A stretch of DNA of 49,315 nucleotides, taken from contig JAJXWJ010000021.1 of assembly GCA_021781655.1 (NCBI GenBank), positions 1 through 49,315 of the forward strand. The letters run 5' to 3'. The translations under genes and the position numbers were made by a program. Positions 7,608 through 20,761 of this stretch are shown here, one piece after another. The notes under the pieces were generated by a model. That model worked only from the letters and a program-made list of their open reading frames with translations, did not search any database and was not told the origin of the DNA. The number at the start of each line of letters is the position of its first letter. Position 1 is the first letter of the stretch. The stretch is from Bacillota bacterium (GTDB lineage Bacteria; Bacillota; Clostridia; Clostridiales; Clostridiaceae).

Positions 7608-8618
7608 TTACCTTCCAAACGTAACTTTTGCCTTTTCCATCATCTTTATAATTGGCAAATTATACGGACATCTTTTTTCACAAGCTCCACATTTTATACA
7701 ATCCTTTGCAGTAGCTTTTAAAGTATTATACCTATCCTCAGCCCAGCCTTCAAGATTATATCTTTCTTTGTATCCAGCAAAAAGAAATACACTAGGTATA
7801 TCAATTCCTTTAGTGCATGGTGCACAATAACCGCATCTTCTGCAAAATTCACTACCTAATTGTTTTTTTATACCATTTATCTTATTTATTTCTTCATCAT
7901 TTAAAGGCTTAATATCATTACCTGCTGTAGCATTTTCTTCAACTTCCTTTAAATCTGCCATTCCGGGAATAACTGTAGAAACATTTTCATTATTTAATAT
8001 ATATTTTAGAGCTAGGGCTCCATCCGTAATTGCACCACCTGCTAATGGCTTCATAACTATTACACCTATATCTAACTCCTTAGCTCTTTTAAATAAGTCT
8101 TCTGCCTGATTTTCAACTATGTTATAAGGATACATTACAGTTTCAAATTTTCCGCTTTCAATAGCAACCTTTAAAACTTCCAAGCTATGGAAGGTTGCGC
8201 CAATATGCCCGATTTTTCCTTCCTCTTTAGCCTTCAAAAGTGCTTTGTAAGCTCCATTTTCACTAAAAATAGCTTCATATTGCTGCATATCTTTAATATT
8301 ATGAACTTGGTATAGATCTATGTAATCTGTCCTTAAATTGTTAAGACTAATTTGAATATCCTTTTCCATACTGTCAAAATCTCTACACATAGATTTTGTT
8401 GCAATTATCCAATTTTTCCTTCTACCTTCAAGAGCATAACCAATAAACTCTTCTGATACAGTATAGCCTCTTGCCGTATCTATGTAGTTTATCCCTAACT
8501 GTTCTGATTTTATTATTGCTTCCTTTGCTCCATCTTTATCCGTTCTTTGAACCGGTATTCCTCCAAAACCTACTACTGAAACCTTTAACCCTGTTTTCCC
8601 TAATTGCTTATATATCAT
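7608..8618 (-). CDS. Aldo/keto reductase with C-terminal 4Fe-4S ferredoxin domain
   Basis: This predicted oxidoreductase has 336 aa from the ATG at 8618. An in-frame GTG nine bases upstream is part of the AGGTG ribosome binding site, so the ATG is preferred. The AKR barrel contains GFGGIPVQR, the Asp/Tyr pair in YIDTARGYTVSEE, Lys in ATKS and His in LYQVHN. The C-terminal part has two Cys clusters, CRRCGYCAPC and CIKCGACEKRC, that fit iron-sulfur binding. Such fused reductases are common in anaerobes and may couple to ferredoxin. It starts 18 bp after the LUD gene stop. The physiological substrate is unknown. Confidence 0.88.
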   Translation of the reverse strand: MIYKQLGKTGLKVSVVGFGGIPVQRTDKDGAKEAIIKSEQLGINYIDTARGYTVSEEFIGYALEGRRKNWIIATKSMCRDFDSMEKDIQISLNNLRTDYIDLYQVHNIKDMQQYEAIFSENGAYKALLKAKEEGKIGHIGATFHSLEVLKVAIESGKFETVMYPYNIVENQAEDLFKRAKELDIGVIVMKPLAGGAITDGALALKYILNNENVSTVIPGMADLKEVEENATAGNDIKPLNDEEINKINGIKKQLGSEFCRRCGYCAPCTKGIDIPSVFLFAGYKERYNLEGWAEDRYNTLKATAKDCIKCGACEKRCPYNLPIIKMMEKAKVTFGR

Positions 8619-8636
8619 TTTTTTCACCTACTTTTA

Positions 8637-9278
8637 TTAATATCCAAGTTCTTTTCCTACTATTATAACTTTTATTCTTCCCTTTCTACCCTGCCTTCTA
8701 ATTAATACGTATTCATTGCAAATTCTTTCTTCACTACTGCAATCCATACAATAACCTACTTTTGCACAAGGTGTTTTTCTGTTTAGTCTTTTCGCATTTC
8801 CTGGTGCTGAGATAGCCTTATTTCTTTCTATAGCTTCTTCTTCATCCCTTACTATTTTATTTGTTCCAACTATAACGATTACCTTGTCCGGTCCATAAAG
8901 CATAGCTGCTACCCTGTTACCATTACCATCAACATTATAAAGTTCACCGTCTTCTGTAATAGCATTACTGCTCACTAAATAACTATCTGCAAAAAAACTT
9001 TTCCTATATATTTCTTTAAGTTCATCACTTGTTATACTATCTTTATATCTATCTAAAAATTTGTAATTGCCATCTCTTAATAAATCTATAATTCCAGTTT
9101 CAAAAAGTGTCATAGAACCGCCAACTGCAACTATTTCACCTTCTTTTATTATTTCTTTTACTTTGTCCAAAGCCTCTAATTCATCTTTTACATAAAAAGC
9201 TTCCATGTTGTTTTTCTCTAAATTTGCCATAGTCCTTTTTACTTTTTGTTCTACTATCCAAGAGCTGATATTATCCAT
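8637..9278 (-). CDS. LUD domain protein (LutC/YkgG-like)
   Basis: This 213-aa cytoplasmic protein belongs to the lactate-utilisation (LUD, formerly DUF162) family. It shows GGSMTLFETGI near residues 53-63, a central DGELYNVDGNGNRVA segment and VIVIVGTNKIV, all typical of the fold. A Cys-rich stretch, CAKVGYCMDCSSEERIC, near the C-terminus could bind a metal or cluster. The start has AAGGAGG. LUD proteins with LutA/LutB take part in lactate oxidation. Neither partner is present here, so a direct lactate role is not supported. It heads an operon with the aldo/keto reductase. Confidence 0.8.
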   Translation of the reverse strand: MDNISSWIVEQKVKRTMANLEKNNMEAFYVKDELEALDKVKEIIKEGEIVAVGGSMTLFETGIIDLLRDGNYKFLDRYKDSITSDELKEIYRKSFFADSYLVSSNAITEDGELYNVDGNGNRVAAMLYGPDKVIVIVGTNKIVRDEEEAIERNKAISAPGNAKRLNRKTPCAKVGYCMDCSSEERICNEYVLIRRQGRKGRIKVIIVGKELGY

Positions 9279-20317: not shown

Positions 20318-20349
20318 CAAAAAAATAGCGACCTTTTTACAGCCGCTAT
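20318..20349 (-). terminator. Terminator of the decayed TipA-type locus
   Basis: Read on the minus strand, ATAGCG (20349-20344) pairs with CGCTAT (20330-20325), and seven T follow. It lies 12-43 bp beyond the stop codon of the TipAS-like remnant, so the small transcription unit is still complete. Confidence 0.6.
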
Positions 20350-20360
20350 AAAAATATTTT

Positions 20361-20501
20361 TTATTCTTTTGTTCCTGTATAAATTAATACAGAATCTCTT
20401 AGAAATTGTGCAAGACCAGGTTGATTTTTGTCATAATATGCTTTAAATCTTTCATCACAAACATACATTTTGGCTAAATTTGCATGTGCCCCCTTTAACA
20501 A
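20361..20501 (-). pseudogene. Remnant of a MerR-family TipAS-domain regulator (C-terminal end only)
   Basis: The minus strand between 20501 and the TAA at 20361 encodes about 46 residues containing NLAKMYVCDERFKAYYDK and GLAQFLRDS. This matches the extreme C-terminus of TipAS drug-binding domains (pattern MYxxDxRFxxYYDK...GLAxFLRDA). The usual N-terminal MerR helix-turn-helix, the coiled coil and most of the TipAS domain, about 200 residues, are missing. Upstream the frame runs into a stop in the operator. There is no good ribosome binding site. A MerR-type promoter and a terminator bracket the remnant, which suggests an internal deletion. This stretch accounts for most of the 20248-20761 gap. 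Confidence 0.65.
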
Positions 20502-20505
20502 CCTT

Positions 20506-20536
20506 AATATACACCTTTACGTAGCGTTAAGGTCAA
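20506..20536 (-). promoter_or_regulatory. MerR-type promoter with 19-bp spacer and inverted-repeat operator
   Basis: On the minus strand TTGACC (20536-20531) and TATATT (20511-20506) are exactly 19 bp apart, the long spacer typical of MerR-activated promoters. In the spacer lies an inverted repeat with arms ACCTTTACG (20513-20521) and CGTTAAGGT (20525-20533), one mismatch. This is the operator shape expected for TipA/Mta-type regulators, and it points into the TipAS remnant. Confidence 0.6.
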
Positions 20537-20761
20537 GAACTTTTTTTATTAAAATTCATTTTATAAGTGAAAAGTATTCTGCTTTAAAATTTAATCAACA
20601 ATATACATTAACCATAATGCATTTTTATAACTTTTATAGTAAAATTAAAATTAATTAAGTATATCTTATAACAAACTTTAATCAATATTATTTATAAATT
20701 AAAATTAGAAAACAAGGTTACACTACTGATGAAAACTATACTTTTAAATACTAAGGAAAAT

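Follow-up and report, generated by a model that had tools for sequence, protein, structure and literature searches.

The minus strand of the window, a stretch of 49,315 nt from a draft genome of 168 contigs, contains at positions 20318-20536 a locus that we regard, with a probability of roughly 0.87, as a lineage-specific pseudogene of a TipA-class regulator. An autoregulated gene encoding a MerR-TipAS protein would here have been shortened by about 642 nt, from its ribosome-binding site to the codons for the residues KEAH, and operator, promoter, last codons and terminator would remain because they are located outside of the deletion. The assignment is founded on the anatomy of the locus, its homology to full-length genes, the size of the loss and the similar decay observed in relatives and once more within the same genome.

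Results

Organization of the locus

At its upstream end, the locus carries a MerR-type promoter (20506-20536), whose -35 element TTGACC (20536-20531) and -10 element TATATT (20511-20506), as read from the sequence, are separated by a spacer of 19 bp. The inverted-repeat operator CCTTAACGCTACGTAAAGG (20514-20532), of which this is the sole exact copy in the genome, is placed inside the spacer region, and both operator and promoter are undamaged, so that the regulatory region characteristic of TipA-class regulators is present. It is followed by a frame (20361-20501) that contains the last ~40 codons of a TipAS domain and a stop, and that is open across 46 codons with no internal stop. In its translation, 39 residues match the Pfam TipAS profile (4e-13, 50.3 bits, cut-off 23.8), and since these correspond to positions 79-117 of 117, only the extreme end rather than a complete TipAS domain is left. 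No MerR winged-helix DNA-binding domain was found between promoter and TipAS tail. The first-pass annotation had described the promoter layout and the TipAS codons following on the same strand, and it had made the latter contingent on TipAS similarity in a profile search of the frame; the layout is confirmed in the sequence and the profile match was obtained.

The boundary between both parts (20482-20496) joins the Shine-Dalgarno (SD)-like sequence AAAGGGGG (20496-20489) to the A-H-A codons of the TipAS domain. The remnant frame has no good start codon, with a TTG at 20501 residing just 4 bases beyond the -10 element and the first in-frame ATG located at 20468, from where it would encode 35 residues. 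The first ATG after an SD-like GGGGG, found 3 bases downstream of this motif at 20485, instead opens a frame of three codons (ATG CAA ATT TAG, 20474-20485, read from the sequence) encoding MQI, and 5 bases after its TAG the ATG at 20468 follows. This arrangement, in combination with the open frame, would be suitable for the synthesis of a free TipAS tail of 35 residues by reinitiation after the MQI frame. We nevertheless consider such a translated mini-peptide most improbable, since neither the lid helices nor the greater part of the antibiotic-cleft domain described for TipA-class proteins (PMC7762955) would be present, and since the decayed copies in relatives described below would give rise to different peptides.

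Directly 3' of the stop, in a position that fits the end of a gene, we find a terminator-like hairpin with a tail of seven T (20319-20349), whose stem (20349-20325) contains nine pairs, four of them G-C. The T-tailed hairpin noticed in the first-pass annotation is thus present, and it is the only such element found between 19500 and 21500, but with an average of 0.8 in shuffled sequences it is by itself within the range of chance. A promoter directed towards the GT-C gene at 20729 (+) was considered and rejected, as inspection by eye revealed no -35/-10 pair at MerR spacing on the plus strand around the operator.

A TipA-class operator signature in the family

We have searched the promoter-operator pattern TTGACNTTNACGNNRCGTNANNNTNTA in 206 genomes of the same family with the reversed pattern as control. 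The 85 sites identified in 77 of the genomes, compared to a single site for the control, demonstrate that the pattern is not due to chance; in the genome of the window it is found once, at the locus described here, and the control not at all. Counting two identical sites of genome G184 once, 84 distinct sites were analyzed up to 1.5 kb downstream. Full-length MerR-TipAS genes are preceded by 63 of them, with the match beginning at an offset of 54 in 37 cases. At six sites, the reference matches only by its MerR end and the C-terminus is different, and nine precede genes without a match to the reference (six DUF2268, one DUF5946, one GNAT-like and one Schlafen-like, the latter two labeled by eye and the last beginning 190 nt from the -35 element). 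Among the remaining sites, one runs into a stretch of N, one is ambiguous and four, in the window and in the genomes G006, G028 and G086, are decayed. At L182 and L226, the same operator class is found in front of proteins of ~400 residues combining a MerR domain with a methyltransferase-like domain (by eye), and the DUF5946 protein behind a TipA-type operator is encoded at L228 (G191:C8).

Extent and nature of the deletion

The 63 full-length homologues, which share the operator class and a near-constant spacing, define the parental organization from which the locus is derived and thus argue for a pseudogene. The end of homology is located at a median distance of 815 nt from the -35 element in these genes and at 170 nt in the window. 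Compared to five full-length relatives (L188, L216, L240, L219 and L196), which were used to place the junction, the window lacks 642-644 nt, with the parts to the left and right both in register. The loss of ~642 nt corresponds to ~210 residues and includes the start; its left end coincides with the ribosome-binding site and its right end with the K-E-A-H codons. It therefore agrees with the first-pass annotation, which had proposed an internal deletion of about 200 residues in a TipA-class gene. An internal deletion is further supported by the absence of the missing MerR half elsewhere in the genome, where the best MerR domain, encoded on contig C85, is 50% identical. The same observation bears on an assembly artefact, in which the 642 nt would have been dropped during assembly: although the draft consists of many contigs and the junction coincides with short similar stretches, the missing half is contained on no contig and comparable deletions are found in other assemblies, which makes this explanation exceedingly unlikely.

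The deletion has probably proceeded by way of short stretches similar to each other (AAGGRGG-like on either side). A deletion hot spot was considered and rejected, since direct repeats shared by the ribosome-binding site and the KEAH codons are not enriched (mean longest match 4.63 compared to 4.42 in control windows); among the 63 full-length genes, 7-nt repeats are found in four and 8-nt repeats in two.

The remnant departs from the family consensus at ten residues. Eight of these are seen elsewhere in the family, and the two exceptions include one at the junction. Its pN/pS of 0.337 over 37 comparable codons (median 0.248, rank 53 in a set of 63 sequences that includes the window and the copies of G006 and G161, with three homologues without the motif left out) is shifted slightly towards relaxed values and is within the range of the family. 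That the TipAS tail has hardly decayed points either to a recent deletion or to ongoing selection on some feature. A recent deletion would account for this preservation without invoking selection, and 37 codons constitute a small sample.

At the DNA level, 17 of 58 genomes match, including that of the window, and none except the latter spans the junction. No MerR-TipAS match was found in the flanks of 80 hppA loci (the best 80 of 559), of which only the first ten are at least 71% identical and none shares any of eight other genes of the window, whose genus is represented by one genome. A literature search covering titles and the openings of abstracts retrieved no report of TipA-class relics consisting of operator and tail.

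Decayed copies in relatives and in the same genome

No two of the four decayed loci are alike in endpoint or product. In G006 (L203, G006:C12, operator at locus position 1301), a loss of 304 nt compared to G152 disrupts the reading frame, so that a free TipAS frame of 97 residues covering profile positions 25-117 remains. Directly after this frame, we observe an MFS-transporter-like gene (by eye). In G028 (L246, G028:C169, operator at locus position 1512), an intact operator is followed by an in-frame loss of 603 nt compared to G162, through which the first 24 residues of the helix-turn-helix (HTH) region and the TipAS tail are fused at a GATGAAA common to both. The product is an open frame of 54 residues, both pieces of which are recognized by Pfam; G163 was tested as alternative parent and rejected because it yields no clean junction. 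In G086, only the operator and the first codons are recognizable (by eye). TipAS is found in at least 160 of the 206 genomes, as counted from the best matches listed, where short TipAS relics may be absent; among these matches, the broken copy is the sole one of its genome in G006 and G028.

Since this census starts from operator sites without mismatch, it misses relics with damaged or different operators, including one in the genome of the window itself. This second partial MerR-TipAS copy on contig C85 (L132, ~635-1263) has kept its operator, and its promoter is near-identical to that of an intact neighbor (TTGACTCTAACACATTGTCATAGTGTATTAT compared to TTGACTCTAACACAATGTCATAGTGTATTAT). As judged by eye, its HTH region ends after 43 codons, the short frames that follow resemble more distal segments of the neighbor, and the first break has removed ~68 residues. 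The intact gene (L003, ~7622-8794) contains a frame of 421 codons with one MerR domain and two TipAS matches. Judged by its sequence, the genome thus contains two TipA-class copies that have been disrupted differently. Both the independent decay in G006, G028 and G086 with other endpoints and the second decayed copy in the same genome favor the interpretation as pseudogene. Because each copy is broken differently, no shared product is being kept, and the distinct endpoints and products fit a neutral loss of a dispensable regulator rather than a retained mini-gene.

Potential control of the operator in trans

The first-pass annotation had suggested that another MerR protein may act at the retained operator and that the locus may produce a small regulatory RNA or a drug-induced decoy. 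In such a case, a different TipA-class protein would bind the orphan operator and drive expression of an RNA of ~170-185 nt. Candidates are the MerR-TipAS proteins encoded on C85 (the frame of 421 codons) and on C3 (279 codons), both with TipAS matches. The intact operator and 19-bp promoter and the terminator-like hairpin are compatible with this proposal, as is the sequence upstream of both candidates, where 31-mers are identical to the window promoter at 21 of 31 positions compared to 14-20 for other MerR matches, and no MerR domain of the genome is closer to the lost one than that on C85. However, the best operator matches of both candidates show six differences at the 16 fixed positions, compared to five for two other MerR genes. 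Across all 18 MerR_1 matches in the genome, the best 19-mers within 300 nt upstream differ at 5-8 of these positions, and a search of the genome for the operator with up to three mismatches retrieved seven hits, two of which represent the window site on both strands, compared to 13 for the reversed pattern. The claim of another MerR protein acting at this site has thus found no support, and control of the orphan operator in trans would be possible, unsupported as it is. A similar picture holds for the RNA: the predicted fold of a 184-nt transcript (-33.4) is ordinary when compared to shuffled sequences (-29.8, z -1.01, 31 of 200 shuffles as good), the window shows no Rfam match at gathering score and no searched relative has the same junction. 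Neither a small regulatory RNA nor a decoy is therefore borne out, and we consider a drug-inducible function of this kind unlikely. Conversely, the ordinary fold and the fact that neither the lost MerR half nor a second copy of the operator was found in the genome strengthen the case for a pseudogene.

DUF2268 genes behind TipA-type operators

We examined the 25 strongest DUF2268 loci of the family (L254-L278), 23 of which carry an upstream TipA-type operator with at most two mismatches in 17 positions. One of the other two contains three mismatches and L270 has no operator (seven mismatches); the best match of the reversed pattern at these loci contains five. A full-length MerR-TipAS gene is found directly downstream on the same strand in 11 of the 25, including L270, and a partial one in one more, and on the opposite strand there is one full and one partial match nearby. 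Five weaker DUF2268 loci were also examined; the operator is missing from four, with 6-7 mismatches, and the fifth shows three mismatches. The genome of the window contains no match to DUF2268, and our literature search found no paper linking this domain with MerR or TipA. A subfamily of DUF2268 proteins, which are predicted zinc proteases, is thus likely encoded by target genes of clostridial TipA-class regulators, and this association constitutes a stronger result than the window locus itself.

Discussion

The features of the locus are best appreciated in comparison to known TipA-class systems. TipAS is the ligand-binding half of Streptomyces TipA and is translated separately. A peptide from the locus would share its reading frame, but only the last ~40 residues remain, and the frame of 97 residues in G006 is the closer analogue. 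TipAL, Mta, SkgA and Lmo0526, which are autoregulated multidrug regulators of the TipA class, resemble the locus in the C-terminal segment of TipAS and in the MerR-type promoter with 19-bp spacing and inverted-repeat operator directly upstream. In contrast to these, the locus lacks a start codon, the DNA-binding domain, the lid helices and two thirds of the TipAS profile. The unliganded TipAS domain of TipA-class proteins blocks DNA binding, and the drug moves the α6-α7 region, thereby releasing the block (PMC7762955). Since this region and the DNA-binding part are both absent in the remnant, it cannot sense or regulate by the TipA-class route.

MerR-type promoters with long spacers require their activator. 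With its own regulator lost, the orphan promoter should thus be weak, uninduced and nearly silent, and any transcript would be an RNA of ~170-185 nt without a normal start codon. The intact operator and promoter, the stop-free frame of 46 codons and the little decay of the remnant speak against a pseudogene. In a more far-reaching scenario, which we consider very unlikely, TipA-class loci of the family, twice in this genome, would be repeatedly pruned to an operator and a fragment and kept because their orphan promoters, recognized by a remaining TipA-class protein, either give rise to a drug-induced RNA or titrate this protein.

As a pseudogene, for which a function is presumably absent, the locus matters mainly for annotation, in that a TipAS match at this place does not justify the label of drug sensor. 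Should its promoter still respond to a protein supplied in trans, the locus would naturally report on a regulator that acts on an orphan operator. Beyond the locus, the census yields an operator signature that can be used for TipA-class regulators of clostridia and, with the DUF2268 proteases as their likely targets, a directly testable pointer.
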